This document shows, in pieces, positions 15,604-60,359 of a DNA stretch of 64,000 nt. A program made the translations under genes and the position numbers. Positions within the stretch are counted from its first letter, which is position 1, and each line of letters starts with the position of its first letter. Source of the stretch: Armillaria gallica (taxonomy: Eukaryota > Basidiomycota > Agaricomycetes > Agaricales > Physalacriaceae); the NCBI GenBank assembly GCA_037576215.1, contig JBANDB010000001.1, positions 8,246,001 to 8,310,000 of the forward strand. Direction: 5' to 3'. Below the pieces are notes generated by a model. That model worked only from the letters and a program-made list of their open reading frames with translations. It searched no databases and was not told the DNA's origin.

Positions 15604-16139
15604 CCTTAGGAATGGATCCTGCCTCTACAGGACACTATTTATTACTTCATCTTCATATTATTGTGAGAGTTGAGCTCCATTGATTGCATAATCTACATTC
15701 AGAAATGTAACTTTTGCCTCCCATCCCTTCTCAAGGGGGTACTGGGATGTCGGCCCAGAACACTGGGCAGGGAGGGAGGGTCATGTGCCAGTCACAAAAA
15801 AGTTTATCCGACCCCCAAAATTTTCATATTGTTACAGCTATTTCCACACTATTTCTGAAGTTTGAAACCTGTCTTTGATCTTCTTTTGCCTTATCTCTGG
15901 TGTATTTTCAATGGTACTTGCTAATCTAATCATAATATGCAATATGATTCCATTTTGGGAACACTACCACACAAGGCGGCAGTAGCTGGATTTGGGCTAG
16001 ATTAGAAATCTTACAATCATCCTCTCAATGAATGGACTACCCCAAGGTATGTTCTATAACATGACTATAGTATAGTGGCTGATACATTATGCAGCTACAT
16101 GTACACAGTGTTCCTGACCTCGCATCACCTATCGTGCTT

Positions 16140-17542
16140 ATTGATGAGTGTAATATTTGGTGCCTGCAATGTCAATGACCCTTCGGGATTGGTCCTGCGA
16201 GTTTAGCTGGTGCACTCAAGAATCTGCACAACAACCATCTTGGGACTAAAGCATGTAGAGACAACATGCAGATATCTGGGCAAGACTGGAATCCTATGAA
16301 GCAGAAGGGAATATTAGCATTTTTCAGTAAAGGGAAGTCAGAGGCCATACCAACAACAACATCTGCACCTACTATTGTACCATCTCACAGTGGTACGTCA
16401 TCCCAAATGTTGCCAATCTCCATTTCCATGCATGCCAATCAGGATTCTACTACACCACCTTCTGAGTTGCTGCCGCCTGCCTCTATTTCCAAGACCAATG
16501 AACCCATTGATATCCTAGAATCAAGTATCATGCTTCTTTCAAAGGACTTCCCAGTCGCAGCTCCCAGCAATATACTTGCAGCATTTTCCGGAGATCCTGC
16601 TCTCTATGATGATCCTACCATTGCATCAGCAGAGCTGTGGGAGGAGATTTTGAACTGGAAGATGCATATTTTCCTTGGGAAATCAGACTTTGAGCTTGTG
16701 CCTCTTGTTTGTATGGGAGAGAATGGGATAAGCGGGTTCTGTTGCTTTGTCTGCTACTTTGTTGGACAGCGCAGCATTGATCCTATGCTGTTTGATTCTT
16801 GAGTTTGAGGCTTCACAGCAGCTATTCAGTCAATGTGAGTTTATCAATGGCTTGTAAAGGTGCTCATAACTCACTACCAAGACAGTCTTGCTAAAGATAA
16901 ACCTTCAAGCCTTGTTAGCATTGACAAGTCTGAAAAACAGGCCGCACAGCTCCAGTCACCTAATGATGATGCTACAGCATCTTCTTCAAGCTCCCAGAAG
17001 CTTCCAGCACCTACAAATGAGATTATCAACATTGATGCCCTTATGCAACCCTTTATACAAGCTACAACAATATCAGTATCTTCTCGACACTGTCAAGGAT
17101 ACCAGCCTACCTTTCCTGATGGCAAATCATCTCATATGTTGTATCCATTTGCACTCCATCATGAACTCTCACTTCCCTAGGACTATGAGACCTCTAATGG
17201 TGTCCTGCAACTTCATGCAAGAACCAGACAGCTTCAGCTTGATGATAGCAATGAAGTCAAAAGGTGTATGGCCTGTACAATGCTGGGACAGGATCCTATC
17301 ATGAAAGGGATAGAGAAGTGCGCAACTGAAGGAATCCATGAGAATACAGTACTCACTTACTATGGCTTCGGAGGACTCACAGAGATTGTACACTGGAAGA
17401 ATTGGCAGATCAACAATATGAGTTTGAGACATTTAACAATGGAGAAAATGTTGCTGACTCATGCGAGGGCTTTAGATGATTATAAGCAGCTTATCTGGCA
17501 GATAGGGCATCGAATTTTACAAACATAGAAAAGCTGATACAG
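16140..17542 (+). pseudogene. PHD-finger transposase-like gene, part 1 (N-terminal)
   Basis: It begins with a zinc-binding-like motif, C-x3-C-x2-C (about 16150-16170) followed by LHNNHLGTKAC, as in many transposase DNA-binding fingers. A Ser/Thr/Pro-rich linker (16266-16800) follows, then conserved-looking stretches such as CTMLGQDPIMKGIEKCATEGIHE and LMEKMLLTHARALDDYKQLIWQI. The frame then reads NIEKLI up to the D1 insertion and resumes as RVTLRHGRGIKGILDL at 19131 if D1 and one ACGG copy are removed. An in-frame TGA sits in the zinc motif, and a 1-nt shift lies near 17500. I recognise this as a protein family common in Agaricomycete genomes; its biochemical role is not established to my knowledge. 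Confidence 0.7.
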
Positions 17543-19130
17543 TGATGTGCTCGGTAACGGGCAGCATGCAAATGCAACAAGTGTCTAGATTATCAATCTA
17601 GATACTGAATCACACACACACACACACACAATCACTAATGTTTAAGTTCGAGGGTGAGTATGGTAGAAGCACTCATGGTGTACTTAAATATCAATAATCA
17701 ATTGGGTTTGTTTCAAAACAACTTTGATTCAAATCTAGAAGTGTTTACACAAGATACACTAATCACGATAGCAAGGTATATGGACGTGGGGGTTTGTAAG
17801 GTATAATTTGAGTGGCTTAGACTTGAAACAACTTTGTCTTGGAGAGCTGGTAAGGCTTTAACTAGACAAGCTTTAACAATTGAACAATCAAAGACCTAGA
17901 GGTCTACAAAGAGTGTAATTGCTCTGGAGTACATGGACTCGATTACAACACAAGCACACACACTTGCAACAAAGAACCAAAGTTTTACAAAGAGTACACT
18001 GACTCGTTAACTATTCAAACTTAAAGCATTCTAGGGCTTATTTCACTTCAACTAGGCAACATCTTCGGTCTGTGGTTGACTTAGCACATCTAGATTACTT
18101 TAGTCAGTGAGGGAGCAAGAGGCCTTTGTATGTGGAGCAGTTCAATTAACTAGCGAGGTGCAAACACGGGGACGACTCTTCTTCCTACTTAATTCTTCTA
18201 GATTACTTATAGCTGCCCTTTTGGGGTTGACTTGGTAAACTTAATTCACTTCAGTTGAGGATATGCAATTAAAACCAGTGATTGATTAGGTAGCTATAAG
18301 GCTACTAGCACAAACATGGGGGAATGCTTTCCTGCTGTTATGTGTCTAGTCGCTGCTAATTTATATGATTTCTAGTCTAGGTATAGGAGCTTGTATCTAA
18401 AAGTAATTATGGTACAAGCTCTTGGTATCAATACAAATAATGAGTAATTAATTTACAAGGATTGCGCCATTCCAAGGTTTCTATTCAGTTGGACAGAATG
18501 ACTAGCGGTCATTCTATTGCCGAGGAGTGTCATATTGGTCCATAGGAACTCCTTGCTTCTCCTTCATGCCTTGCCACATGGATTCCTATTCAATACTATG
18601 AATTGCGCAGTATTTTGAGGATGTAACCACTGATCGTGATTGATCATTGGACTGAGATTGTATTTGCTTCAATCACTGTGCAATATTTAGCTATCGCTGT
18701 GCCAAGCATTGGTTATTCAGTTATTCTAAGTTTATTTGTGTTCTAGACTAAGTTCATTTCACATTGTGAACCATTGTGGACTTAGCAATTCTCTTCTTAG
18801 GTTCATTCAGGTCATCGAGATGATGAGTAATCTAGTCCTTCTGTGTTCTGCTTTATTGTTTGTAACTCATCTTGATGTGTCCCTTGGTTCCGACTGTAAA
18901 TAGTCTTGTTTTGGGCAGGGAATAGCATTCAGTGTTAAAGGCTTGTAGAGTTGACTCATCTAGATATCGCTTCTAAGTCCATTCTTATACTGTATTGCTC
19001 ACTATCTTATGTAGTATTCTAGCTATCAGTGTAAAGCCTTCACTATAGCTCTCTGTACTGCTTGTAGACTGTGTTATTTGATATAAAATTGCAAAATCTA
19101 CAGGTAGCCTGATACCAAGTGTATCAATGG
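17539..19130 (-). mobile_element. Solo LTR D1
   Basis: The LTR is 17543-19126 (1584 bp), starting TGATGTGCTCGG and ending GTATCA, with flanks ACAG (17539-17542) and ATGG (19127-19130). Both derive from ACGG by one CpG transition each. The family is shared with D2. The TATA-type core in D2 is on the minus strand, so the sense strand is taken as minus. No internal genes remain. Confidence 0.8.
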
Positions 19131-20603
19131 GTCACCTTGAGACATGGCAGAGGGATAAAGGGAATACTGGACTTGTATGAGGCAGCTGCATGGGGTGTAT
19201 ATCACTCAAAATCATTCACAAAGGAAGAAGAAATGCTTGCAATTCTGTTCTGGAGATTATGTCGTATATGGCTGGCAGAAATTGCTCACTGTGCACTTGG
19301 TCTACCTGGCATGACCACCATTTGAGGGTGTTCAACTGTCCCCCTCATCATCCCTTCCTATGGTTGACCTTCTCTCACTGAAATCAACAAGAATATTGCT
19401 GCTTGTTTTGAGGGCATCCTTTCAATCCTTCAATCTCTTCCTGCAGGAGTAGTGCAGGTTATCTTGATGTTCGATGAAATAGCAATCGAGAAGTGCCTGA
19501 GATGGGACCATTCAATGAATATCATCATGGGGCCATGCCAGGAGCACTCACATAATGTTGATCTTGAGTTTAAGACCAGTGATGTGATGGATAAAGTGTT
19601 CAAGGCCATTGATGATGATGAGATCCATTATGCATCTGAGGTAATAATTTTCCCACAGTCACTTCCCTTTGTGCAAATGCTGATTTACGATTATATAGGC
19701 CACTGTCAGTGCACTATCAACTCTGAGTAATGATAAAAGGCTCTATACAGCTCACCCAATCCTCATTTCAGAAACCTGCAAGAAGGAAAATGCCCTGGAG
19801 CATTCTTATATCCTCAAAACTGTCCTGACTGCCATTAATCATCAGCAGACAATTACTATGCTTCATACAGTCTCTATTGCCTCTGATGGTGAGACAAAGC
19901 ATGGTGGGGCTTTAGTGCTTCTTACATGCAAAAAGGAGCTAGCCCCTGATTCTCCCATCTATACATACCTCTCCCCACATGTATTACATTTTATGAATTT
20001 CCTTGTGGGAGACAATGACCTCATGGCTGACAAGGACTATTGACATGTTTTTAAATGGCTTCGGAATCTTTTCATCAGGCCCAACAGTGTCACCATTCTC
20101 GATGTCCATATCACACCAACAATGATTCAATCACATCTTTGATCTGAAGGCCATTCAGAAGCTCATAAAAGCAAGTTGTTCAAGCTGAATGACAAACAGG
20201 ATGTTTGGCTCACATACAAGCTTCTCAAGGATATGTGGAGTCTCCCTGAGACATCAAGTGAGAAGCCCAGCTTTGCTTGTGCATGGAATGCCATCCAAAT
20301 ATTGGGGAGATTATGCAAATATGTCCTCTTCCCATACATCTGCATGGACTTGAGCCTCTCTGAGCAGCTCCATTATCTCAGTGCTGCAGTGCACCTCAAT
20401 CTCATCCTTTTCTGATCATCACAGAAGGACTTTTTTCCTACTCTGCTGTTTGATGATATCATGATCACCATCAAGAACATGTATTTCTGTGTTGCCCGAG
20501 CTAAGGTGGATACACCAGATGATCAGTTTTACATCATATTACTCAGTACAGATGGTCTTGAGAAGCTATTTGGCATCCTGTGAACCATGGTGGGTAATGA
20601 CAT
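19127..20603 (+). pseudogene. PHD-finger transposase-like gene, part 2 (catalytic core)
   Basis: Reading continues from part 1: RHGRGIKGILDLYEAAAWG, then ILMFDEIAIEKCLRWD (Asp codon 19473-19475), EHSHNVDLEF, a short intron at about 19640-19698, SIASDGETKHGGALV (Asp codon 19885-19887), VGDNDLMADKDY-stop-HVFKWLRN, IKNMYFCVARAKVDTP, LSTDGLEKLFGIL-stop-TMVGND. The FDE-I-K block, a later SDGE and a K-D-x2-H-x2-K-x-L-R-N block resemble the RNase H-fold core of P-element/THAP9 transposases, where Asp residues bind catalytic metal. That match is my inference from motif order. All premature stops I noted here are TGA, several standing for Arg. The gene is cut at GND by insertion B1 and resumes with TNVDILQL at 37800. 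Confidence 0.72.
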
Positions 20604-22297
20604 TGATGAGCCTCCAGGCTCTGTATGCTCAGAATTCACAGATTTATCCTACTAATTAATGCTACCATCCCTTCAATGGCCTTTCAGTAAACCAATGATT
20701 GCACACATGGCAATACCACTTTCATCCTATGGCAACCACTCCTCATGTGCTTGGTTATCCATCCCATCTTGTTACACATTATAATTGCCATATTTCATCA
20801 CAGCAAGGCACCATTGATTGAACATCATCCTAATATGGAATCATAGCATCACTCAGAAGCACCTAGTTGATGTGCCCATTGATCACTTAATGAAATGACA
20901 TGATTAATGCAAGTACCCTCCCAGCTACAGCAATTACAGCTACAGCAACTACAGACCATGTTTACTAAGGCTGTTACTCTGCCAAGGCCTTGAGAAAACA
21001 TTGCCCCATGCATACTCTTCAGCACAACCACTGCAGCCTGATAATCCACAGCTAAACAGCACCTACTGATCCATTTGTTGCTCAGTAAAACCATATGGTT
21101 GCCATCCATACATGGCAACATTGAAGAGTTGGTGTTACTTTAGAAGACAAAGGACCATATGTTCCCTACAAAGCCAAGGCCTTCCTGTCTTGCTAAGTCT
21201 CTCATATTTACACTATTTATAAATTTGTACTTGTAGTATAAAAGCTAGCTAGAAAACATTGTTTAGGGTTAGTTCATCTCCAGTTGACCACAGTCTATGT
21301 CAATTATCATCACACACTAGTCTATCACTTGTAACCCACATTTATTACCATTCTATGGCAATATACTGTTTACCCCAGCATATTCTTGATTGCACATCAA
21401 CTCGTTAACTCACCAGAGTTATTCCACAGTTTTTAACTGTGAAGGGTTCTTTGACACTCACTCTTCGCTCTTAACACTATTGGTACATGCTCATATTGTG
21501 CCAATATGTGATCACCGCACCATTCTTTGCCCATGTTATCTTTTATAGGCCGTCATTGTTTCACTTTCACACCATTGGAGTTTTCATGTTTTCTCTTTCG
21601 CTATCGTTATTGTCACCCACTTGGGTAGTCTCTGAGTAGACTTAGGATTAGTATAGGACCAGTTTCAGCAAGTTTTTGTATAGTATCAGCCTCTCGAGTG
21701 GACTTGAACATTAGTTTTGACATAGGATAGGATCGTTTCAGTACCAGACCAGTTTCGACATCGACTTTAGCATCATCACACTGTATAGGACCAGTATCAC
21801 TGCCAGTTTTTGTAGTTCCATGTTTTCCCTTGCCATTCCACCCTCAGCACCTCATTCCACATTTTCTCTTGCCTCCACCAGTTGCCATTCCACATTTTCT
21901 CATCACATCACTCGCTTCTAGACTATTGCCGACCATTTAGTCTATCTTCCATCGTTCACCCTGCTAGGATTGCCATCCAGCAATGTTTTCTAGTCTCATC
22001 ACATGTTTTCTCATATGGATTCATGGTATTCATGTTGATGAGTCTAGACTTCCATGGCAACAGCAACACCAACTTGGAATGAGATTGGGTAATTAATGTA
22101 GTAGCACAGCAATCAAGGTGATTGTGTGTGCGAGTGGGTTTGGAGCACCTCTGTGCAGTAAATCAATTCCTCTATATGCAAGTATACACTGCAACTTTAA
22201 GTCTGCGAAGTAGTAGTGCTTGGTAGTCAAGTACTAGATGCTATGGCTTTAAGCTGGTAGGGTTCTCTTTAAAAGAGAGGGAACAGGAGCAGGTATG

Positions 22298-23668
22298 ACA
22301 TTGATGTGCTCGGTAATGGCAAGTGGCAAATGGACTAGAGGCTGGCAATGAACACCAACAACACTAAACCAATCACTAACTCTACACTTATCACCAATGT
22401 ATTGAATTCGGGCGTTTCGAGTATGATAGAAGCACTCTGCAGACTTCAATAATCAAGGAAAGTTGTTTAAAGATGTTTTATTTCGTTACTAGTGAGCTAT
22501 ACAAGCGTACTACTCGCACTAGCAGGGTTGGTAAGACACAATTGGATGGATAGTGACTTGACTTGAGCTACTGCGCTCGCTCTGACTGGGACTGCTTCAA
22601 ACTAGTGGCTCTCTTGGCCCTGTAATGTCTTACAAGTGAATAAACACTTGACTAGTCGCTTTCTAGGCGGACTAGTGGCGCTCTTGGCCTAAGAATAATA
22701 CTTTAAACTTCGAGAACTCGCTTGAACTAACTTTGAAACACTCTTGGCCTTTGCAGGACACAAAAGATTGCTCTAAGACACTTCTATTCACTCAATGCTA
22801 TGGGTAACTTAGCGACTAGTAGCCGCTTTGTCGAGGTTAAGCACAAAAGCCTTTAATTGGGGCACTAGATACTGACTAGTAGGTCACAATTGCGGGGATG
22901 GCTTGCCTCCTCCACACGTGCGCCTATTCTACTACTTATATACTGACAAACAAGGTATGATTGAGATATAAATAACTGACTAGAGGAGTATTATTGATAA
23001 GGATTTCTTGGCTAGTCACAAATAATGGTGAATAATCACACAATAGTCGGTCTAGAAACGGTCGCTTGCTGACTAGTGAGCCTAGGAGCTCTGCTAGCAG
23101 TTGTATTCCATGCCCTGGGCCCAGTGACGCTCCACTAGTGTCAAGGATAAATGACTAACCAGGTGAGCGTGCCTGTAACAGCTATCAATCGTGATCGAAG
23201 GCACAGCCTGGCTAGTACCGATCGCAATGGATCTGTATCGCACTAGTCGGATCTGCTGCAAGGTTAATCCATTGCTAATTCATTTCTAAGTCCTGTTTCG
23301 AGATTGCCGCATGACTAGTTAACCTGACTTAGGCATTTATGCCCAGATCGACTCGCTAGTGACCAAACTTCACAAGATTTGTGTCCTCTGCTTCTTGTTT
23401 GGTGTGCTAGTCACGTTACTTGTCCATTAGTGGCCATATTCACTTAGCCCTGTTAGCATTCAAGTCACCAGTATGGCTGGCTGGTAGATTTAACCCACTA
23501 GTGGTATCGCATCTAAGTCCTGGCTCTACTAGTCGCATACTAGTCTAACTATCAGCTTGAAGCCTCAGCTATAGTCCTCTAAGTCTCACTAATGTAAGAT
23601 AGATATGCAATAGTATTATTATAAAATGGCAAAATCTAGGTGTGAATGTGTAGACAGCGTATCAACGT
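22298..23668 (-). mobile_element. Solo LTR D2 inside B2
   Basis: The LTR is 22302-23664 (1363 bp), TGATGTGCTCGG to GTATCA, flanked by ACAT (22298-22301) and ACGT (23665-23668), one CpG transition apart. TATA-type core CAGTATATAAGTAG (sense) at about 22931-22944. It enters B2 at the position homologous to where B2 enters B1. Confidence 0.82.
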
Positions 23669-24637
23669 GAATACCACAAATCCGTATGAGAAAACATGAG
23701 ACAAAACTAGAAATTGTTGCTGGACAGCAATCCTAGCAGGGTAAATGATGGAAGATAGACTAAATGGTTGGCAATAGTCTAGAAGTGAGTGAGGTGATGA
23801 GAAAATATGGAACGAGGTGCTGAGGGTGGAATGGTGAGAGAAAATGTGGAACTACAAAAACTGGTGGTGATACTGGTCCTATACAGTGTGATGGTGCTGA
23901 AGTCGATGTCGAAACTGGTCTGGTACTGAAACGATCCTATCCTATGTCAAAACTAACCTTCAAGTCCACTTGAGGGACTGATACTATACAAAAACTTGCT
24001 GAACTGGTCCTATACCGATCCTAAGTCTACTTGGAGACTACTCAAGTGGGTGACGATAACAATGGTGAAAGTGAAACTGTAAAAACTCCAATGGTGTGAA
24101 TGAAACGATGACGGCCTATAAAAGATAATGGGGGCAAGGTATGGCATGGCAATCATGTATTGGAACAATATGAATGTGTACCAATAGTGTTAAGAGCGAA
24201 GAGTGAGTGTCAAAGAACCCTTCACAGTTAAAAACTGTGGAATAACTCTGGTGAGTTTATGAGTTGATGTGCAATTGAGAATATGCTGGGGTAAACAGTA
24301 TATTTTCATAGAATGGTGAATAAATGTGGTTTACTGGCAATAGACTAGTGCGTGATGATAATTGATGTAGATGGTGGTCAACTGGAGATGAACTAACTCT
24401 TAAATGACATTTTCTAGCTAGTTTTTATACTACAAGTACGAATTTATAAATAGTGTAAATATGAGAGACTTAGTAAGGTGGTAAGGCCTTGGCTTTGTAC
24501 AAATCATAGGAAACATATGGTCCTTGGTCTTCTAAAGTAACAGCAACTTGTTGATGTTGCCATGTATGGACGAAAACCATATGGTTTTGCTGAGCAATGA
24601 GCAGATCATTAGGTGCTGTTTAGCTGTGGATTTCTGG

Positions 24638-26335
24638 GCGATGATGAGCCTCCAGGCTCTGTACGCTCAGAATTCGTGGATTTTGCCTGCTAATTAACAC
24701 TACTGTCCCTTCAATGGCCTTTCAGCAAACCAAAGATTGCACACACACTGATATCACTTTTATCCTACGGCAACCACTCCTCACACACTTTGTTATCCAT
24801 CCCATCTTGCCACACATCATAATTGCCGTACTTCATCACGGCAAGGCACCTTCGATCAACAATCATCCCAATACGGAATTGACGCATCACTCAGAAGCAT
24901 CTAGTTGACGCGCTCATTGATCACTTAATGAAAATGACATGATTGACACGAGTACCCTCCCAGCTATGGCAATAGCGGCTACGGCGACTACAGACCATGT
25001 TTACTAAGGCTGTTACTTCGCCAAGGCCTCAAGAAAACGTTACCCCATGCATACTCCTCAGTACGATGACTATTGCTCAAGTAATCCGCAGCTAAACAGC
25101 ACATAACGATCCGTGCATCGCTCAGTCAAACCATACGGTTCGCATCCATATGCGGCAACATCGACGAGTTGCTGTTACTTTAGAAGACCAAGGACCATAT
25201 GTTTCCTACAACTTTTTACAAAGCTAAGGCCTTACAGCCTTACTAAGTCTCGCATATTTACTCTATTTATAAATTCGTACTTTTAGTATAAAAACTAGCT
25301 AGAAAACATAGTTACAGGGCAGTTCATCTCTAGTCGACCCCAGACTACGTCAATTACCGTCACGCTCTAGTCTATCGCCAGTAAACAATGTTTATTCACC
25401 GTTCTACGGCAATATACCATTTGCACCAGCATATTCTTGATTGCATGTCGACTCTTGAGCTCACCAGAGTTATCTCACGGTTTTAACTGTGAAGAGTCCT
25501 TCGCTACACGCTCTTCGCTCTTAACACTATTGGTACATGCTCATACTGTGCCAATACGTGATCGCTGCGCTATACCTCGCCCCAGTTATCTTTTATAGGC
25601 CATCATCATTTCACTTTCACACCATTGGAGTTTTTACAGTTTCACTTTCGCCATCGTTATCATCACCCACTTGGGTAGTCTCAGAGCAGACTTAGGATCA
25701 GTTCAGCAAGTTTTCATATAGTATCAGTCCCTCGAGTGGACTTGAAGGTTAGTTTTGACATAGGATAGGATCGTTTCAGTACCAGACCAGTTTCGACATC
25801 GACTCAGCACCCTCGCATCGTATAGGACCAGTATCATCACCAGTTTTTGTAGTTCCACGTTTTCTCTCACCAGTCCACCCTCAGCACCTCGTTCCACGTT
25901 TATTTCGCCACTCGCAGTCCCCATGCCATTTTCTCATCGCTTTGCTCGCCCACAGACTATTGCCAACCGTTTAGTCTATCTTCCATTGTTCGCCTCGCTC
26001 CGATTACCGTCGAGCGACGTTTTCTAGTCTCACAGCACGTTTTCTCATACGGATTCGTGGTATTCATGTCATACCCGTTTTCGTTCTCTCTCATTTCGAG
26101 AGATCCCTACCGGCTTGAAGCCATAGCATTTAGTACTCGACTACCAAGCAGTACTACTTCACAGACTTAAAGTCGCAGTGTATTCTTGCGTATAGAGGAA
26201 TTGTTCTACTGCACGGAGGTGCCCCGAACCACTCACACACACTATCGCCTTGATTGCCATGCTACTATGTTAATTACCCAATCTCGTTCCGAGTTGGTGT
26301 TGCTGTTGCCACAGAAGTCTTAGGCCCATCAGCGA
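24638..26335 (+). mobile_element. Solo LTR B3 inside B2, uninterrupted reference copy
   Basis: The LTR is 24642-26331 (1690 bp), flanked by exact GCGA (24638-24641 and 26332-26335). TATA-type core at about 25287-25294. It is uninterrupted and therefore supplies the empty-site sequence for the KDZ target (about 24990-25005), for the B2/D2 site (about 26060-26078) and for the C1 site (26213-26216, ACGG). Confidence 0.87.
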
Positions 26336-26410
26336 TAGTCATTGTGCTGAGGAGTATGCGTGGGGCAACGTTTTCTTGAGGCCTTGGTGAAGTAACAGCC
26401 TTAGTAAAAC

Positions 26411-26735
26411 CACCTGTTAAGCCTGCAAATGTACAGATATAAGAGCTGTTACAAATGCATATTAACGGCTATAACAACTGTGAGGGAGAGGGATATTTAT
26501 GGTACCCCAATAATTATTGAATAAAGATGTCTTCTGACTCCTTAATACGATATCCTTTTGTCAGCAACGTCATTGCATACACGTGTGCCCATTGTCCTGT
26601 TGTCCCCAACTCTTCCAAACCCTGAACAATGGTCCCATCCCTGGGCTCACCATCATCCACGACAATGATGACGATGACTTCTTGATTTTTAAACTTAAAA
26701 ATATGGGGGAAAGCGTAGAAAGTCAGGAATATATA
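26411..26735 (+). repeat. KDZ left terminal inverted repeat
   Basis: About 325 bp, the inverse of 34900-35224 with scattered substitutions, many at CpG. The match stops near AGGAATATATAT. Frames inside it mirror each other in the two repeats and are not taken as genes. Confidence 0.88.
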
Positions 26736-26812
26736 TTTGTGCACACTGCCTTTACTAGTATCACTGATAAGAAAGGAACAAAGCTACTGGTAGTGGCAGC
26801 AGTGGGAATATG

Positions 26813-28654: not shown

Positions 28655-29276
28655 AAGTGTCCCAGGACAAATAATGTGTCAACATGAAGACAATGTGTGT
28701 CTCAGCTCCTATGGTGACTGTGGAGTGCATCTATAATAGGGGACTCATTAGGCTGCATTACAGGGTAGTGATAGGCAGCAATGTTATTCACAAGGCGCAG
28801 GTCAGCACGATATTAGGACAGTGCATTGGGGTGGCATCATCCTAGACTGACTCAGTATCAGCTTTAATACAGAAGATTCACATACTGTGTAATTTGTATT
28901 AGTATCATCTCTCAGTGCTCAGCGTCGGGACCAGCTATGAGTGACTGAGGGAGTCTCTGCAAGAACATGTGTGGGAGCTATTTGAAATAATCTGGGCTTT
29001 GCTGAGATACTCTTGGTCTTTGCATTGATGTTGCTACCAACCCTACAACCTCACTTCCCCTATGCGACCCTTTGAAACTCCTAGCTTTAGCCAGCATGGC
29101 TTTTCATTCATGTGAAAGGAACAACTGGGATAGCCGACTGTTTCCCACTGTAGGAGGGCAATATAGTAAGCTCTACTTCACTCTCTGTGTGAGACAACTG
29201 ACTGACAGGTCTTGGAGTTGGTGCAGTCGATAGCCATCCAGATTCACCTGAAATTTCAACTGAATCAAGTCTAATA
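28655..29276. other. Intergenic region between divergent KDZ genes
   Basis: 622 bp between the divergent starts, a likely shared promoter region. An open stretch from about 29210 is in frame with the downstream gene and could be part of an upstream exon, since ACTGACAG at about 29203 is a possible splice acceptor. Confidence 0.4.
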
Positions 29277-30349
29277 ATGACCACCGAGTATTCAACAACA
29301 GTGACAGTTGTAGATGTGGAGCAAAACTTGGAGAGGGCCACCATTGATGACCCCCCTTACCTCTACATTAATCTCACTACCCCACCTTTGTCGCCATCAC
29401 CACTTCCTGTACAGGAGCATCCTGTATCCACTGAACGTGCTCCTGCCTGTGATGAGCATTCAAGCCTGCCTGATTTCCCATCATTCTCAGTGAGAAAGCG
29501 CAGAGTGAAAGGACCGGTGTTGACTTTTCAGCCAGTGCCTGGAGTTCCACGGTCTCCTTCAAAATTTACACCTTTCAAATCTCCATGCCAGCCAGTCTCG
29601 AGGCCCAAATTCACCCCAATTCGAGCTGAATTTCCCACTCCTCCACGCCCCATTGTGCATAAGCCAGTTGATCCAATCAATGTTAAGATGTTCCAGCACT
29701 GGCCCAAGGAGAATGAATCCAGCTCAGAGGAGGACAAATCCAGCTCAGAGGAGGACCAAACTAGCACTGAGATGGAAGAAGCAGACATGGAGTTGCACCA
29801 GCTGACTGCCAATTTTGGTTCCAAGAAGCTCAAAGGCCATGGGACACGTGGAGATGTGTATTGGGTCATTACACATGGAAGGGTCATGGGTGTCTACAAT
29901 GATCAGTAAGCCAATTATCTCTCATACATACTTTTGCTTACCCTGTTTTCAGTGAGACCATGGAAGAAACTAATGCTCACTTCCATACTGCTAAGATATG
30001 TGGATTCCCTACCCTGAAGGCAGCGTGGCAAGCCTGGGATCACGCATGGCATAACAAGAAGATTGTATACTGTGCATATGGTCTCTCATCTGCAAATGAG
30101 CCAGACATAAATGACAATGTCGAGCTCTTCTGGGTTATCCTTGAAGGTGCTACTTCCAGTATTCACTGCAATCAGTAAGTTTGATCTTGTATTTTCATAC
30201 AAAATCTGATGGTTCCCATTAGTGCTGATACCATGGCAGCAGTTGGAGAAGACAATCCTTACCTTCTCCACATTGCATGGAACCTCGCAGATGCATACGA
30301 GATCCAGAACTGGGGCATCAGCCATGGTCTCATCAAGTACCACTGCTAA
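29277..30349 (+). CDS. Intact KDZ cargo gene with two tandem RNase H1 N-terminal-like modules
   Basis: Predicted exons 29277-29905, 29953-30174 and 30223-30349, with introns of 47 and 48 nt. Both donors read CA/GTAAG and both are phase 2. The total is 978 nt, 325 residues plus TAA, with no stop or shift. Residues 1-165 are disordered-looking, Pro-rich, then acidic (SSSEEDKSSSEED). Then VYWVITHGRVMGVYND, HFHTAKICGFPTLKAAWQAW resembles the small RNA/DNA-hybrid-binding module at the N-terminus of RNase H1 (viroplasmin-like). A second module follows: LFWVILEGATSSIHCN, IAWNLADAYEIQNWG. The splice junctions fall at the same place in both modules (NDH-ETM and CNH-ADT), pointing to an internal duplication including the intron. 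Its being intact among decayed neighbours suggests selection or late arrival. The domain name is moderately supported and the role in the element unknown. Confidence 0.7.
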
Positions 30350-31599
30350 ATACCTATCTGATACTGTCTCTACCTCATGTGCCTGTATTCCCTACTCAAA
30401 TGAATATTCTGTTTCCTCTGTTCAATGCAAGATCAGCTCATTGCTGAGAAACCAGATGGCAAACAGTGAGATGTGTCAGCAATACCTGCCTGCCCAATGT
30501 TCACATTGATGAGCAATTCTATCCCATATTCACAGTCTATGTGGCTCAGAGGTTTCAGGATAGACTATATACTGCTATATCTACAATATTTATAAGGTAG
30601 AACTGTCCAATTTTCTACCATTGATTAAAAGTCTGATTAACATCTGATCATTTCAGAGGCCAAGGTCTTTACCCATGCATTTTGTCCTCTTTGATCATGA
30701 CATCCATCATCTGCTTTCTTGTTGTTCCCCTTGCTCCCAACTTTTATGACCAACGATGATCTCCATACCAGACAGCATGGATGGCCATGCAAATATTTCA
30801 CAGAGGAGGAAAAGAAAGATGCGAGAGCAGTTATACAGGCGCAGTACTATGGACAGTGTGTGTCCTGCTATGCAATAGGCATTAGATACTGATTTGAAAC
30901 TAGGAACCGTGAAGACATCAACACAGATATGCGACATTGCTACCACACTCAGAAACCATCAAATGTAAGGTCCCAGCATCAATGCCTACAACAACAAGAA
31001 CAGATTGCACTGTCACCTTCAACAACCTCCACATCCATGTAGGTTGCAACCTTGACTGCTTTGTTCATCTAATGGGTTATCCTCAGGTCTAACAAGTGGA
31101 CTCTTTGTGTTCAGTGGCTGCATCAGATCAGGCTACATTGAGGACAACTGATAGCATTGACTGGCAACAATGTGGGAAAATATATTGGCCATCTATGCTC
31201 AGGATTCCTCTGCATACAAGACGAGAGCACAGAAACACTTGAAGATGCTCTTTCCAAGATTGAGAAGATTTATGACGACGCTAATGGGAACCTTCAGATG
31301 ATTTACTTGGAGTCTGGAGTCTCACCAATCTTTCATGAAGCAGAGGAGGTCATAAAAGGATGGAGGATATTAAACAGCAGATACAGGATGTTCTGGCTAA
31401 TGCAATGCTTGGAAGGCAGGAACTTAGAAGACTTCATACTAGAAAACTTCTATTATATCAGACTTCATAGGCATAATGATATCTCATCTAATGCACCACA
31501 GAAGATCAGTCTGTCCAGGCCTCGTCACATTCTCATCTGTTGATTGTCTTACCTTTTCATTCTCATCACAACCCAGCCACAGCCATTGGAGCTCCTACT
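30350..31599 (+). pseudogene. Decayed coding stretch between KDZ cargo gene and transposase
   Basis: Fragments such as LLRNQMANSEMCQQYLPA, then NVHIDEQFYPIFTVYVAQRFQD (about 30440-30600), and a 128-codon frame at 31157-31543 (GNLQMIYLESGVSPIFHEAEEVIKG) look like former coding sequence, but no continuous gene can be built. I do not recognise a family. They may belong to a third gene of the element. Confidence 0.35.
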
Positions 31600-34500
31600 A
31601 TGTCCAAGAGGTCAGGCTCATCTAAAAGAGTTCGTACTCACTTTCACAATGATGCTGGAACAATGGTCTTGAAGAAATACTGCAGTCAAGCCCAGATATC
31701 CTAGAAAAAGGATAAATCCTCTCTTTCAAGGGCATACAAGCAGCAGAGTAGGTCATTTAGAGTCTGAACAGTCATGGGTTAACTTGCTTTACTAGTACTG
31801 AGTCCAGAACAACTACGACAGATGGAAGAGACATGACTTGCCATGACCCAGGGAGATCTACCAGCTGATGAGTCGATGGAACTGAATACAGGATCCCTCG
31901 ATGCTGAAATGATGAATGATGTACTTTCAGGACAAATGCAGGTGGATATCAGCCACACTGGGGGTGAGTATGTCGAGGTGATGGAGGAGTTATGTGACTG
32001 TCTCAGAGAGAAATGGTGAGTACAATGTTTAATCCATTGGCCATATATCCTCAATGCTATCAGGCATAAACATGACACCAGAAAGTGAAAAAACTGAACA
32101 TATGTTCACCATCAAGGCTTCGATCCCCAAATGTCCGCACTCGCTGATGCTTTCATGGAGTGGGATTTGAGTCGAGGAGAAGAAAAGAAGATGGGAGACT
32201 CAGACAAAATGATAGATGGTTCCATATCTATCAAAGCGGTTGATTTGTATCATGTGTTTATTTCTTCATTTTCAATGAATTTTCTCTCATCTGCATGTAG
32301 GTGAATATGATACTATTGTATCAACACTATCCACAGATGAATTTGTAACTGTTGCACTTGTCTGCCAAGGATTCCTCCCATGTGCACCCTTCCAACCGTC
32401 TGTTGTAATCACTGTCTCTGCAATGGAAGTATATCATACCACCCATTGGCGGTGTCTGCAGTTTACCATCCAGCCTTTTGTCAAGATGCTCTGTGATCTT
32501 CATGCTGTTGCCTTTTGACCATACCTACTTCAACAATTCTCCATCTGTTACAATTTATACATGGACCTGCTGAATGCCATTGATAGTTGTGTTTGTACTG
32601 CCCTGGGATGCGACACACCAAATTGGCATGCATTGAACACCTGTCCAAGCTGTACTTATAAGCTCGAGGGCGAGAAACCTTTGAGGTTTGCTATGCTTGG
32701 AACAATGGATGGTAATGACTCTTTGAAATGTGTTGAGAAGCAGGAGAGTGAAATTATTGACGATAATAGAGGCACCCAACCTGGTGAATCCATCGAGAGG
32801 CTGGATTTGTGAAATGGGTGAGGTGAGTATTTCATTCCAAGGGACAAGGTGGACCAGTGATCAAAAGAGGCGATTGGTGAATCCCTTGTTCATTCCAGAG
32901 ATGGTAATGATGAAAGCCCCTGCTCTGAGTGATGGCAGAACATGATCAATGATATATCAGCAAAGGTATGGGGAATTTTTGATGAGACTGGGATTCTTGT
33001 CTGCCTGTGTAGACATGGCTTTGTGTTGCTCATAACTGACATGGTTTGTAGCAGGGAACTGTGAGTAAATTTCTTCTACAATCTAAACATAGGCTGATCA
33101 GCACATGGCACAGCCAAGTACCCCCTTGCTATGGTTGATTAGCTTCTAGATTTGTATAGGGATGATCTGGGCATTGGATATGATGTTGGCTGCAAGTTTG
33201 GAACCACTGTCTTGCGATCACCGCTAGGGGAGCATGCATGTGCATTGAGGTTCTCCTCACTTGTAGGCCTGTTCCATGGCCATGCGCATCAGTGCCTATG
33301 CCAAATTCTCTTCCTTGCAACATACATACTTGGCCTTGGGCTTGACAACCTTGAAGGCTGTGAACACTTTTTCTCAGGGTCAAATGCTCTCACAGCTGCT
33401 ATTTGACATGCAAGCAGGTTTCACTGACATCAAGCCATCACAACTTACATAAAATATAAAGACAGGTTCAACACCTTCCAGAACCTAAGTGAGTCCTTCA
33501 ATCATGCACAGAAGACCTTGACTTGACAGTTTCCTTCTGGCAGGCTTGTTCTTGTGTAACAACTATAGGCAAGCCTTGGATATACTGCAGGAGTTCCTGA
33601 TTCTTGAGGACTCAATGAAGTGGCTGGAAATACAAGACAAGTCCATGTTTGACTCCTGGCAGAAAGAGGAGGAAGAATACCTTGCAAAGCTATCCAAGGA
33701 ACCACTGCAAGAAACACTTGAAATGGAATATTTTATGGCACTATTGGACATGTACACCCTTCAGTAAGTGGCCATGATTCTTATGCTATAATTGTACTGA
33801 CCTTGTGTAAGGCTTCAATAGATGAAGCAGCAGACACCTGGACAATGGTGAAAGTTGACACAGTTGACAAACAAACTCACAGGACCGAGACAGCACACTG
33901 GCACCTCCTGGAAAAGCACAACAATGCCCTCAAGACGGTCCAAATTCTAGAGGCTTGTCTTGAGACACAGCAGTGAGAGATTTGGTGTGCAAAGTGGTTG
34001 GAAAATGAGAAGCATGTGAAGATGCATACATATCAACGAGCCATTGATAATTTGGAGCATCTGGTCATATCACATATTTTTGAGCTGACAAAAATGAACA
34101 TGTCACACACAGGTGAGGTCTCCAGTTAATCAATCTAGGATACACGACTGATGACTCCTTCACTTCAGGCTACAAAATGAGGAAACACATAGGGAAGGCC
34201 TTGCAAACTTATTCGCAAGCTATACAGACTGCCCTTGACAGATACAACAATGCCACTTGTGCTCTAGATCCACCTCGTGCTATACTTTGATGGGATCAAG
34301 TCATTGATTATGCCTTCCTGTCTGACTTTGATCTTCTTCGAGATCCTGGCATGTGTGAGGGCATTCAGGAAATGTCCAATAGGATCTGGGAAACACCGGC
34401 TGGACAAGCGACAATGGATCGGTATTTCAAGATCAAACATGCAGAAGAGGAGATTGACCATCTGAATATTGAGATTCCCTGCTTGCTCACATACATGGCA

Positions 34501-34890
34501 GATGAAGACCACTATCTACAAGACCAAAACCTTCACCTCCAGGCATCCAACCCTGCTCTGGCTCATCAAATTTCGCATTATCGTCTTGAGCGAGTACGCT
34601 TTTATGATCAACATCATAAACACTTTGCACATCTATCCAAATGACCTGCTATGACTGTGTCCTTGACAGCAGGGATGGTAGCAGGGACAAGGCCTGGATG
34701 GAATGGTTCTGCTGTGGCAGAAGCTCTTGCTGGTGATGGGCAGGGTGCTTCTCGAACAGCCAGTGATGTGCCACCCTCCTCCGAGTATTTTACTGATGAC
34801 ATTGAAGCTGACGATGATGATGATTGTGATGATACTGAGGACCAAGTTGAGGAGCAGTTGATAACACTCATGGACACATTCTCTGTCTGA
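31600..34890 (+). pseudogene. KDZ transposase, decayed
   Basis: The probable start ATG at 31600 reads MSKRSGSSKRVRTHF. Conserved KDZ blocks follow in order but in changing frames: LVCQGFLPCAPFQPSVVITV (about 32350), CPSCTYKLEGEKPLRFAMLGTMDGNDSLK (32640-32730, the cysteine-containing CxC-type block), DDLGIGYDVGCKFGTTVLRSPLG and LVGLFHGHAHQCLCQI (33150-33310), DNLEGCEHFFSGSNAL (33340-33395), then C-terminal YKMRKHIGKALQTY, DRYNNA and a coiled-coil-like stretch (34350-34640). It ends in an acidic tail (EADDDDDCDDTEDQVEEQL, TGA 34888-34890). Known: this enzyme cuts and reinserts KDZ elements. Frame changes and stops make it non-functional here. Confidence 0.85.
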
Positions 34891-34899
34891 GTAACAGTA

Positions 34900-35224
34900 G
34901 CCATATATATTCCTGATTTTCTACACTTTTCCCTGTATTTTTAAGTTTAAAATTGAAGAAGTCATCACTGTCATTGTCGATGACAGCGAGCCCAGGGATG
35001 GGACCATTGTTCAGGGTTTGGAAGAGTTGGGGCAATGGGACAATGGGCACACATGTACGCAATGACCTTGCTGACAAAAGAATATCATATTAAGGAGTTG
35101 GAAGATATCTTTATTCAATAATTATTGGGGTACCATAAATATCCCTCTCCCTTGCAGTTGTTATAGCCATTAATATACATTTGTAACAGCTCTTATATCT
35201 GTACATTTGCGGGCTTAACAGGTG
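34900..35224 (-). repeat. KDZ right terminal inverted repeat
   Basis: Inverse partner of 26411-26735, ending TTAACAGGTG just before the AGTAAAAC duplication. Confidence 0.88.
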
Positions 35225-35735
35225 AGTAAAACACAGTCTGTAGTTGCCATAGCTGTAATTGTCATAGCTGGGAGGGTACTCGTGTTAATCACATCATTTC
35301 ATTAAGTGATCAATGGGTGCATCAACTAGGTGCTTCTGAGTGATGCAGCAATTCTGTTTTAAGATGATTGTCGATCAAAGGTGCTTTGCCATGATGAAAT
35401 ATGGCAATTATGATGCATAATGAGATGGGATGGATAACAAAGCGCACGAGGAATGATTGCCACAGGGTGAAAGTGGTAATGCCATGTGTGCAATCATTGG
35501 TTTACTGAAAGGCCATTGAAGGGATGGTAGTGTTAATTAGTACAATAAATCCACAAATTCTGAGTGTACAGAGCCTGGAGGCTCATCAATGTCATACCCG
35601 CTCCCGTTCCCTCTCTTTTAAAGACAACCCTACTGGCTTAAAGCCATAGCATCTAGTACTGGACTACCAAGCACTACTACTTTGCAGACTTAAAGTTGCA
35701 GTGTATACTTGTGTATAGAGGAATTGATTTACTGC

Positions 35736-37683
35736 ATGGTGATGAGCCTCCAGGCTCTGTACACTCAGAATTCGGGGATTTAGCCATTCATTACCCAATA
35801 TCTTCGAAACAATGCCATTATAATCCCCACATACTCCATACTACTGCCAACTCTCAATAATACCACGGATTTTCACAGTATAGGCCACAAACGCCCAGAT
35901 ACTGTTATGATTTATTCACTTTTTTCCTTTCTCTTATCTTATCTCTCACACTGGGCCATCGAACATAGGGGTAACCATGCGCATTCCCATGTTATCTCTT
36001 CGATATTGCGTGTTCTCGCTTCAGCATTGCATGCTCTAGCTCCAATCTTTCATGGACGACCTATACATAGACCCTCACTCTGAATATTTAAGTAGTAGCT
36101 CTTGTAGTATATACCCCAGCCTCGAGCTAACATTAATCTATACTGAAACTATCACTTAATTCCTCGCTAAGAACTAAAGAAGTTAGTCAGATCACCTATC
36201 CCTTAAGGAACTCATTGGTGACTGCCCGAACGCGAGACAGCTGGTGTTTATCCTTGATAGGAGTTCAGGTCTAATAGATACAATCCTAAAACCATGACAT
36301 CCATACTCCTCACACACCCTGTTATCCTTCCCAGCTCGCCTCACATCACAATTACCATATCCCATCATGGCAAGGCACCTTTGATCGACAATCATCCTAA
36401 AACAGGGTTGCTACATCACTCAGAAGTATCTGGTTGATGTGTCCATCAATCATTTAATGAAATGATGTGATTGATGCGAGTACCCTTCTGGCTACAATAA
36501 TTACAGCCATGGCAACTACAGACCGCGTTTACTAAGGCTGTTACAGTGCCAAGACCTTGAAATATCACAGACACAAGTATACACCTCAGTACAGCAACTG
36601 CAGATCAGTAATCCGCAGCTAAACAGCACCTTATGATCTGCTCATCACTCAATTAAACCACACGGTTTTCATCTATACATGGCAACATCGAAGAGTTGCT
36701 GTTACTTTAGAACCACAGAATCCATATGTTTACTACAGCTATTACAAAGCCAAGGACTTACAGCCTTATTAAGGCTCTGATGAATATTCTATTTATAAAA
36801 TCATACTTGTAGTATAAAAACTAGGTAGAAACCGCATTTTTAAAGCTAGTTCTTACCCAGTTGGCTAGACTACAGCATTACCAGTCAGCTATGGTTACTC
36901 CAAGTTATCCCTCACTGCTTGCTTTACTCTAAATGTTGTTGGTTTACATTAGCTATTGTGCCAATACATGGAATCTTGCATCAATAACTTGCTTTTGTCT
37001 TTTAATGCTGCAACATCACTTCACTTTCACCACATAGGATTGTTCCATCGCTTTCATCTTCTACATCACCATCATTTTCATTGCCCAGTTCAGTATTGCC
37101 TCCATGTAGGCCCAGTTCAGCATCATTCTCCATAGGATCGCCCTTGTCTTCAGAGTTGCCATGCATCTATTGCTGCAACACCACCCTCAGCATCTCAGTT
37201 ACCACATTTTCTCCCAGTTTCAAGGCAGTTTCCACACATTTATTGCCATTCCTTCGACTCAGCATTGCAGTACACCATCTGGACATGTTTTCTAGTCCAT
37301 CCCCACGTTTTCTAGTGCATTGCCACGTTTTCTGGGTCCATTTTCATGATCTCTAGACCTATTTTCATGCTCTTTAGCTCGTTAATATGGTTTCTATCAT
37401 GGTTTCTTGGTATTCAAGTCATACCAGATTCCATTCCATCTTGTTTATTGAGATCCATCCTGGCTTACAGCCAACATCTATTAGTACTCCTTGACCAAGA
37501 GTACTACTTCACTGACTGAAAAGTCACAGTGTATCTTGTGTTATTGAGGAATTGACCGCATGGAGGTGCACTGAACCACTCGCACACACATTGCCTTGAT
37601 TGCTGTGTTGCTATGTTAATTGCCTAAGCTCTCCCTGAGTTTCGGGTGTTGCCGTTGCCATGGAAGTCTAGGCTCATCAACAG
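35736..37683 (+). mobile_element. Solo LTR C1 inside B1
   Basis: The LTR is 35740-37679 (1940 bp including H1), TGATGAGCCTCC to GTCTAGGCTCATCA, related to family B at the ends and in the TATA region (36813-36820). Flanks are ATGG and ACAG. The empty site in B3 (26213-26216) reads ACGG, so both copies have lost the CpG in opposite directions. Confidence 0.83.
35898..36281 (+). mobile_element. Small Gypsy-type solo LTR H1 inside C1
   Basis: 374 bp (35903-36276), starting TGTTATGATTTATTC, close to the sense start TGTTACGATTTATTC of the chromovirus LTR, and ending AGGTCTAATA against GGGTCTTACA. Flanked by GATAC on both sides (35898-35902 and 36277-36281). The C2 copy lacks this segment. ATATTTAAGTAGTAG at about 36085 is a TATA-type core. 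Confidence 0.75.
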
Positions 37684-37799
37684 AGGTGACCTGAACCCAC
37701 TCGCACACACAATCACCTTGATTGCTATGCTACTATGTTAACTTGCCCAATCTCATTCTGAGTTGGTATTGCTGTTGCCATGGAAGTCTAGGCTCATCA

Positions 37800-40421
37800 A
37801 CACCAATGTTGATATTCTCCAGCTTGTTACCAGGCTTACCGGAACTACTGAAGTCACTAATATTCATGCCCAATGTCCTGATTGGGATCATGGAATGCAG
37901 CATCTTCGCCTCCCTGCACTTGCGTGAGATTCATCCCAAGTTCCTGAAAATGAGGACCATCATGCACCCTCTTCTTGGAGAGGTGATGTTTCTTTGAGCT
38001 CTGTCTCACTCCAAACATGCTGGTGACAAGGCAAGTCCATAGCATTGGAAGAAACGCCAGAAATCCAACTGCTGATGTCTGCTTTGGATGGCTGATCTGA
38101 TGTGGATATTCTGCAGCCATTTGGATCCTGGATACTTTCTCAGCCTTGTGCACCAGATGACAATGAGGATGAGGGTGAAGAACAGGGAAAACCTGAGAAT
38201 CCAGTGATAGTGCAGCCTATTATAGGCATCATGGGCACACCTTACTCTCAAGACCTCAAGGATGCACTAGCTGTGGAAGATATTGGCCCAGGTACAAGTG
38301 GATCCTGGAATTTCTCCTCAGATGTACTATTGGATGGGCAAAAGCTGAGCAAAGCTTGTGTGCTTGCCCTTCAATCAAAATACCAGCATATGCCAGCATC
38401 CACTGACTGTCTGCAATGTGTTGCTGACAAGAACAGGTTCACACTCAGCATCAGGTCCTGAGACAATTATTGATCATCAATCCACATTCAGAGAACCCAG
38501 TCTGATGTTGAGTGAGCCTGTGGCCACACTCATCTATTGTGAGAAATGTATATTCCTAGCCATTGGCAAGGTTGTGGATATTCATATCAACTCCAATTCT
38601 ACAGAGGAGCTGTCATTAGATTTGCTCATGGAAGATATGGCTACAGTGACATACCAAGTTGTTGATCTCATTCCAGCAACTCAAAAAGATGATCCATCCC
38701 TGAAAAATGACTGGCACTCCACCAGTCATCTCCAGCCTGCGTTTCTTACTGCACCAGGCTACCTTGTTCAGCCTGTCAGCCCTATGCTCTCAATGGCCGC
38801 AAGCAAACCATTCTTTCTATTTGACAGTGCTGTGCTTGTCACATTGGCAGACAGCTTGGCCACAAGGATATGCACTGGAGACATCAAACGGATTCCGACA
38901 GTTCCATGTACTCAACACTTTCTCTACCAAGAGAAGTCAGGTATGTTAGCTATCTTGGAAACAGAATAGACATACTGAACACCCTTTAGGAAAAGCTTGC
39001 TTTTTGTACACCTCTCCGAGTCACCCACACTCACCTCACGATGTTGATATACTCACAGCTGGTGCTCTCTGCCTGTTTTGTGTGCCATCAGTCCCATTGG
39101 ATCCCTCAAAACCTCATCACTTTCATGAACATACTGGCGCACGTATCTTGAATAAGTCTGTTCTACCATTGATGGAGCCTTGCAGGCTTTGCAGCTCACC
39201 ATTGTCAAGTTGTCAATTTTACTTGACAAAGGGTAAGGGGTCTGGAGGGCAAATGAAGATTGATTATCATGCATTGTGAGGCTGTCCAAACCTTGGCATC
39301 AGATTCAAATATGATGTCACAAAGATTTCCAGAAAAACTGCACCATGTTCCAACATTCCTTTTCATTGCCCTATCTGCCCAGAGAATGCACCTGCCATTT
39401 GGAAGTACATGGCAAAATATCACTTTATGAATCACCACCCAGCTGCTAAACTCAATTGCTATGCAGCCCTGTGGACAATCATGAACAGAGAACGCAAGGG
39501 GATGAAAAAGGTATGGAAGAACTGGAAAAAGGTTATGAGGACGAGGGGCCCAAATAAAAGGAAGAAAAGTGAGCTTGGTGTCCTTGTAATTTCTGATGCT
39601 CATACCACTGCAATTGTCCAAAGGTAAGTGCAGAATCTCTAAGAGATCAACAAGAAAATAACTCAATCTATTACACAGAAATACCAATTTGACTTCCAAT
39701 AACAATGATAGTAGTATGACAGGCACAAACAACAATCTGATGGAATTAGATGACAGTGAGGCACATCCAGATTTAAGCGATGAAAGGAGTACATCTTCAT
39801 CTTCAGATGAAGGTGAAGATGATGGTAGTGATGAGGAGGATGAAGATTTGAGTGACGACAGCTCCAACCTAGGGCTAGATGACATGTTGGCAAATGAGAT
39901 GAGAACATCAGAAGCATGCAAACGTACCCATGAATTTGACCCATGCTCTGTAGCCAGCCTTCCCTTCAACCAATCCTTGTCATGCTCACCTTCTCATTCT
40001 ACAGATCCTATGTTGGTGCCAGATTCTGCGTCCATGGTGTCTTCAGAACCATCTGCTGCACTCACACCCTCAGTCAACCCTCCTGATGTGGCTTCTGGGA
40101 GTCATTTGATTATGATAGGGCATCAGCAAGAAGACAGCTCCAATAATGCTGCACCATGGAGATTGACAAGGAAACGGAAGGCCATAGATATCAGATCGCT
40201 GAGAGAGTGCCTATACGGCCATGTTGTTGAGGAGGAGGAACGTCTGCTGGCAGCAATGTGCTGTAGGAAAGGCTGTGAAACAGTTTGGGTAAGTAAGACA
40301 CTTAGATGGATGAATATGAGACTTACTGGCTATACAGTACTACTTGGCATGTCCTGAGGTAGACTATGTATCAATTGAATGGTTGTGTGGGGCATGCAGG
40401 AAAGGGAAGCGAAGGAATTAA
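37800..40421 (+). pseudogene. PHD-finger transposase-like gene, part 3 (C-terminal)
   Basis: Reading resumes as TNVDILQLVTRLTGTTEV, then decayed blocks: MDILQPFGSWILSQ, LLDGQKLSKACVLALQSKY and STDCLQCVADKNRF (38340-38450), CEKCIFLAIGKVVDIHINS, LCLFCVPSVPLDPSKPHHFHEHTGARI, EPCRLCSSPLSSCQFYLTKGKG, CSNIPFHCPICPENAPAIWKYMAKYHFMNHHP (39340-39440, a Cys/His zinc cluster), then a Ser/Asp/Glu-rich linker (39690-40100). The last exons (to 40288, then 40338-40421) give GCETVW-YYLACPEVDYVSIEWLCGACRKGKRRN, with the Cys pattern of a PHD-like finger, and a TAA stop. An in-frame TGA after DYHAL probably replaces Arg. PHD-type fingers read histone tails in known proteins; a chromatin-targeting role here is inference. 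Confidence 0.75.
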
Positions 40422-40616
40422 GCTTGTGATGGCATGGGAAGGGAGATGGAGAATGTGGGGGCTGATAGTGCTGAACACTCTGGTCCTGGCATTCTCTATA
40501 TGGAATGTATGATGTCATATGCTCATGTGATAGGGAGGGAGGGTCCATAGGATGCACAAAATATTTTAATTGACCCTATATCTTTTTTTATTTTTTGGAA
40601 CCCCCTTGTCCCTTCT

Positions 40617-59868: not shown

Positions 59869-60359
59869 CAAGGGAGTACTGGGATGTCAGCCTGGCACAC
59901 CAGGTAGGTAGGTAGGTTGGGCCAGCAGGCCCAAAAAAAAAAGTTGACCCCTCCTATTTGGGTCTAAAAATGAGTTTTTGAGGGATATTTTGAATGAATC
60001 ATGATACAAAATATAGCAAAATACATTCTATTTACCTCTGACAATATGACAACTGGTGTTACAGACATCTTCACCAATGCTCTTTGGCCTCAATACTCAC
60101 TGCATTGTGATGATGTCATGTGCCTTGTTGAATTAATTTTGAAGTACAAGTCCAATAGGAGACAGATTGTGCTCAAAACATCGGAATATCCATTATGCAG
60201 ATACTTTTGCATGAAAAATGAGCTAAAAAGTGTGAAAATAGACCTATATTAAGAAAAATGACATCATATAGGTCACATGGAGATAGGTAGGTCCAGCACC
60301 AATGCATGAAAATATTTAATCAACCCACTGTCTTTTTTATATATATTTGGACCCCCTTG
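59869..60359 (+). mobile_element. 491-bp non-autonomous relative of the large TIR transposon
   Basis: It starts CAAGGGAGTACTGGGATGTC, like the left end of the big element (CAAGGGGGTACTGGGATGTC at 15732), followed in both by a G-rich block, an A-run and GTT. It ends GGACCCCCTTG, like its right end (GGAACCCCCTTG at 40608), with similar AAAATATTT and TTTTTTAT blocks before it. No coding gene. I found no matching 8-bp flanks, so the duplication may have decayed. Confidence 0.65.

Follow-up and report, generated by a model that had tools for sequence, protein, structure and literature searches.

A decayed transposon of Armillaria gallica with very short ends and a predicted P-type transposase

A stretch of 64,000 nucleotides from Armillaria gallica (GCA_037576215.1, contig JBANDB010000001.1, positions 8,246,001 to 8,310,000, forward strand; hereafter the window) contains a disrupted gene for a PHD-finger protein between short inverted ends. 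As an earlier note, made from the sequence alone, had described these ends as 9-bp repeats bordered by an exact 8-bp duplication 24.9 kb apart and had assigned the gene product to the P/THAP9-like transposases, we were interested whether a transposon is indeed present and to which superfamily it belongs. The window element is very probably a decayed DNA transposon of the cut-and-paste type that belongs to a deep P-superfamily branch present in many Agaricomycetes. It has defined ends, an 8-bp target-site duplication, an empty site, several gene-bearing and many internally deleted copies, and P-type catalytic residues.

Ends, empty site and copies of the element

In the window sequence a nonamer and its reverse complement, each directly bordered by the same exact octamer, were found at the coordinates described before:

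15724 to 15731, no strand: left target-site duplication TCCCTTCT, present once in the empty site on C19
15732 to 15740, plus strand: left terminal inverted repeat CAAGGGGGT, one of 33 related left ends of the genome
40600 to 40608, minus strand: right terminal inverted repeat, reading ACCCCCTTG on the plus strand
40609 to 40616, no strand: right target-site duplication TCCCTTCT

As the nonamer alone is common in the genome (824 places compared with 576 for the backwards-read pattern, in 86 Mb on 28 contigs; all counts of ends and copies refer to this A. gallica genome), independent proof of the ends was needed. The flanks of the window element together with one TCCCTTCT match C19:399462-399625 (91%), uninterrupted across the junction, and this locus is an unoccupied paralogue of the exact insertion site of the window element. 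Such empty sites were searched for four insertions (the window element, the gene-bearing copy C4_66, the miniature inverted-repeat element L032 and the short copy L024), with one match per site aligned, and junction-spanning matches were obtained for three of them. The best match for C4_66 lies on C5 (90%) and has GATAGATA once, that for L032 lies on C3 (88%), its single target differing at two of eight letters, and no match for L024 reached beyond about 12 bases past the junction. A second right end of the same type, ACCCCCTTG, is located at 60351-60359 of the window, with no matching left end plus duplication within 12 kb.

Eight gene loci were found in the genome with one exon as query. Both CAAGGGG ends and 8-bp duplications surround four of these (the window element, C4:2356299, C9 and C4_66); the earlier note had proposed to look for this arrangement around homologous genes in other genomes. 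The C9 copy measures 5,651 bp and is flanked by TTTTGTCT twice, the C4_66 copy measures 6,152 bp with a duplication matching at seven of eight positions, and for the copy at C4:2356299 (L017) the right end lies 18.4 kb further on, with CTTTGAGG present twice. Only a right end was detected at C3:967961, and no convincing ends were seen at C7, C3:2659862 and C4:1114088 within the stretches fetched. Another element of this kind seems to surround L017, since the left flank of this copy contains GGTC/GGTT-like repeats as well as a CCAGACC...TCTGGAA sequence.

Shorter copies are more numerous. Among the first 100 of the 824 places, 18 plus/minus nonamer pairs with a spacing below 600 bp were counted by hand; when 13 of these were fetched (all from contig C1, 384-534 bp), a duplication of 8 bp was present and exact in 11, and one of 9 bp in none. 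Similarly, the first 85 bases of the element occur 33 times, window copy included. From these matches 30 loci were cut, three of which were dropped (CAAGG absent at the expected place), and for the remaining 27 left ends a right end with an 8-bp duplication was located no more than 1.5 kb away in 11 exact and four one-mismatch cases, compared with two of 1026 control trials in which displaced 8-mers agreed with at most one mismatch. At least three elements are common to both sets. A second group of short copies (L024, L029, L031, L033 and L034) also has 8-bp duplications and shares an end of the kind CAAGGGGGTGGCGGAAATAAAATT, unlike the subterminal sequence of the window element; these copies perhaps depend on a different branch of this transposase.

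Subterminal tetranucleotide arrays

Close to both ends of the window element a tetranucleotide is repeated:

15769 to 15780, plus strand: left subterminal array AGGGAGGGAGGG, 37 nt from the end
40532 to 40543, plus strand: right subterminal array AGGGAGGGAGGG, at 65 nt from the right end and oriented like the left array

A set of 30 two-ended elements, obtained after removal of near-identical ends and including two that lack an exact duplication (L027, L028) and one whose duplication has two mismatches (L042), was used to follow this feature. Perfect period-4 arrays of at least 10 bases were found at the left end of 22, the right end of 21 and both ends of 17 elements, single-letter shuffles giving averages of 0.67, 0.60 and 0.01, respectively. 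The arrays lie 33-38 nt from one end and 56-83 nt (mostly 61-73) from the other, in identical orientation. When the rows were read by eye, 15 of the 17 elements with two arrays had the identical unit at both ends (AGGG, GGTA or GGTC, on either strand reading). Different units were seen in the C9 copy (GGTT and GGTC) and in L046, where chance probably accounts for the TATT run at the right end. The unit varies between element families, and because many rows are related copies, the independent array events are few. Binding sites at asymmetric spacing are described for the Drosophila P element (PMC7776569), and we regard the arrays as putative transposase-binding sites.

The transposase gene in the window

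The gene is disrupted by stops and by two nested inserted regions. Outside these, three segments (15732 to about 17535, about 19116 to 20603 and about 37800 to 40608; insert borders approximate) sum to about 6.1 kb, in agreement with the length given before, and the zinc motif and the PHD-like finger claimed for the two termini of the protein were both recovered:

16161 to 16265, plus strand: coding stretch of an N-terminal C-x2-C...H...C zinc finger, with one stop; similar motif in 36 of 49 long homologues
16179 to 17528, plus strand: 5' coding pieces, open at 16179-16802, 16839-17180 and 17181-17528; homology at 16998-17507
17536 to 19115, no strand: nested insert of about 1.6 kb with GATAC/GATAC flanks, interrupting the transposase gene
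19131 to 20607, plus strand: catalytic region by homology, with the codons for D, D, D(2)H and E; PF21787 at E 0.0072 (below cut-off) on 19368-19730
20604 to 37799, no strand: large nest of later insertions splitting the gene, borders approximate, including a KDZ transposase fragment
37799 to 38449, plus strand: coding region resuming after the nested inserts, by homology
38451 to 38939, plus strand: predicted SH3/Tudor-like beta-barrel domain
38989 to 39627, plus strand: Cys/His-rich region, by homology at 38989-39504 and as an open piece up to 39627
39662 to 40288, plus strand: acidic region and, from 40208, first half of the C-terminal PHD-like finger (open piece)
40338 to 40421, plus strand: second half of the PHD-like finger and stop codon, behind a GT...AG intron-like gap

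Despite the decay the catalytic codons are kept, with D as GAT at 19473-19475, D as GAT at 19885-19887 and E as GAG at 20560-20562; D and H of the D(2)H motif lie within 20035-20046, with a TGA between them.

The insert nest has outer ends TGATGAGCC...GGCTCATCA that are LTR-like (resembling long terminal repeats). It contains inverted arms at 26411-26606 and 35029-35224 (92% complementary), and many repeat units in both orientations, 77-96% alike, lie within 20604-26606 and 34903-36863.

The protein family

Two homologue searches, each scoring 8,000 candidates and listing the best 120 matches, gave at least 361 protein matches with the C9 copy (TGA read through) and at least 812 with a profile of 24 sequences. 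Named homologues among the matches listed are called hypothetical, zinc finger or PHD-type proteins. Three of them were looked up and belong to Agaricales, Auriculariales and Russulales; the remaining ones we take to be from Agaricomycetes as well. Among the matches listed, 49 homologues have at least 1,450 residues, and the N-terminal C-x2-C...H...C motif was found in 36 of these, a complete C-terminal C4HC3 PHD by strict pattern in 15. Several other long homologues end inside the PHD pattern, perhaps due to gene prediction. Comparison of P0137 with the Pfam PHD model led to E 2.3e-5 and 24.9 bits, slightly under the cut-off of 27. In an alignment of 38 members the first D is present in 36 of 37, the second D in 37 of 37, and D(2)H and E in all 38, so that the signature string of the P superfamily (D, D, D(2)H, E) is present in the family.

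Assignment to the P superfamily

The predicted fold has an RNase H core, as the earlier note had required, with a helical insertion domain, and the Drosophila P transposase is its best structural match by a wide margin, 8 Z units above the next. The match (218-744 of the model on 128-566 of the chain) covers the fly insertion domain, the limits of which are given as 339-528 (PMC8230255); the transposase thus has a P-type fold by prediction. Of the 38 members, 27 gave a PF21787 match at E 0.5 or below, and one locus is just over the cut-off; no other Pfam family was matched by more than three members.

Ends of the CAAGG type and 8-bp duplications also fit a divergent hAT element, for which the end consensus is YARNG. 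As the hAT dimerisation domain PF05699 was not among the matches to E 0.5 in the 38 members (some partial) and the predicted fold is closest to the P transposase, we rejected this assignment and consider it most improbable. A KDZ transposase was rejected since PF18758 was found in none of the 38 members; the fragment at 33143-33403 within the nested inserts (about 26411-35224) gave PF18758 at E 1.1e-25 and served as positive control.

Several observations weigh against the reading as a P-superfamily transposon. Sequence similarity to the fly P transposase is close to nothing and barely detectable, and the P-type structure is a predicted and not a solved one. No P transposase was matched by sequence in the PDB, and neither PF21788, PF21789 nor a THAP domain was among the matches of the sequences compared with Pfam. 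Direct comparison with the fly protein by hhalign gave a probability of 3.8 and E 0.011, with an aligned register largely as expected. A profile alignment scores above shuffles only in the first half of the insertion domain (z 3.1-3.8, 25 shuffles), where it puts fly D339, H342, K345, N349 and V401 on D531, H534, K537, N541 and V587. For the first RNase H block the score was reached by 4 of 60 shuffles and for the last block by 39 of 60; in these alignments, which are not clearly above shuffles, fly D230 falls on D349 and E531 on E709, D528 is unaligned, and D303 meets A427 and not the second D. Finally, at four of the eight gene loci the fetched stretches do not show both ends in recognisable form, and in seven of the eight copies stops interrupt the parts that correspond to the middle and core of the protein. 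The eighth, L023 (C3:2659862), is free of stops there and has one in its C-terminal match, but a gap of about 1.8 kb divides it; judged by eye, this copy resembles an Armillaria protein.

Differences are also suggested for the cofactor site. In the fly enzyme K400, S409 and K385 contact GTP (PMC7776569). The weak profile alignment places them on D586, R595 and R574, while K385 is unaligned at the lowest gap cost. Of the further GTP-contact residues, V401 is kept as V587, and F443, D444, N447 and D528 are not reliably aligned. Because lysine, serine and lysine would thus be aligned to D, R and R, the presence of the same GTP site in the Agaricomycete transposase appears doubtful.

The lack of almost any sequence similarity to P, the apparently changed GTP-contact positions, the THAP domain not being found, the long C-terminal part and the unusual subterminal arrays could also be explained if the element represented a novel eukaryotic superfamily, a sister of P, hAT, KDZ and RAG/Transib with only the general plan of RNase H core and helical insertion in common. 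The margin of the P match, its coverage of the fly insertion domain and the Pfam result with PF21787 argue against it, and we consider this explanation improbable. The element very probably belongs to the P superfamily in a wide sense and not to the THAP-bearing family: the earlier P/THAP9-like assignment is supported for the superfamily, on the predicted fold, and does not hold for THAP9 in the strict sense, as no THAP domain was found and the alignable GTP-contact residues appear mostly changed.

Comparison with known elements

With the Drosophila P transposase (6p5a, 6pe2) the family shares the predicted RNase H core and helical insertion domain, D-D-E, D(2)H and the 8-bp duplication, and with the P element subterminal binding sites, putative here, at unequal distances from the two ends (fly features from PMC7776569 and PMC8230255). 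It differs by ends of 7-9 bp instead of 31 bp, another N-terminal zinc finger in place of THAP, a C-terminal part that is very long and carries PHD, the tetranucleotide arrays, and D586, R595 and R574 at the weakly aligned positions of K400, S409 and K385. Vertebrate THAP9 and zebrafish Pdre2 share the catalytic triad and D(2)H (PMC8230255), and for Pdre2 ends of 13 bp, 8-bp duplications and relatives with internal deletions are described (PMC7776569); here no THAP domain was found, and a PHD finger and a predicted barrel domain are present. Galileo of Drosophila has the same triad and D(2)H, with mostly 7-bp duplications and long inverted repeats (PMC4168063) where our element has 8 bp and very short ends. 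KDZ (Kyakuja-Dileera-Zisupton) elements are likewise DNA transposons of Agaricomycetes (PMC12730594), and one left its fragment in the window element; that fragment matches PF18758, whereas the transposase gene around it does not.

A fungal P element as such is not new, since P-superfamily elements with 8-bp duplications were reported in 2011 from the rust fungi Puccinia and Melampsora (PMC3164196). These (Repbase P-1_PSt, P-1_MLP and P-2_MLP), also from Basidiomycetes, are likened here by description only, and no rust fungus was among the 120 homologues listed by either protein search. According to PMC7776569 fungi lack THAP domains, and neither an Agaricomycete P element nor one with a PHD finger is described in the accessible parts of the literature searched, mostly papers outside subscription. 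The domain set and the end structure of the element are unusual.

Proposed mechanism and implications

From these features we infer that a zinc-binding domain of the transposase would bind the subterminal GGNN arrays, the transposase would pair the two element ends, and the D-D-E active site would cut, the ends being joined 8 bp apart in the target. The same enzyme would also mobilise short copies that retain the ends only. The PHD finger and the Tudor-like barrel may direct it towards or away from particular chromatin, and its use of GTP may differ from the known mode of the fly enzyme. A more far-reaching reading, which we put forward tentatively and regard as rather unlikely in its entirety, is an ancient Agaricomycete branch of P in which THAP was replaced by another zinc finger, the GTP cofactor was lost, PHD and Tudor-like barrel guide integration by chromatin state, and both ends are recognised by a variable GGNN array that co-evolves with the DNA-binding domain in each element family.

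Hundreds of proteins, of which the named ones are called hypothetical or named only after zinc or PHD fingers, are most likely transposases, and CAAGGGG ends, GGNN arrays and the 8-bp duplication are marks by which the short copies can be annotated. Three questions thereby become testable: whether the use of GTP is a general feature of the P superfamily, whether integration is steered by a PHD finger borne by the transposase, and how transposase and end-repeat unit change jointly.
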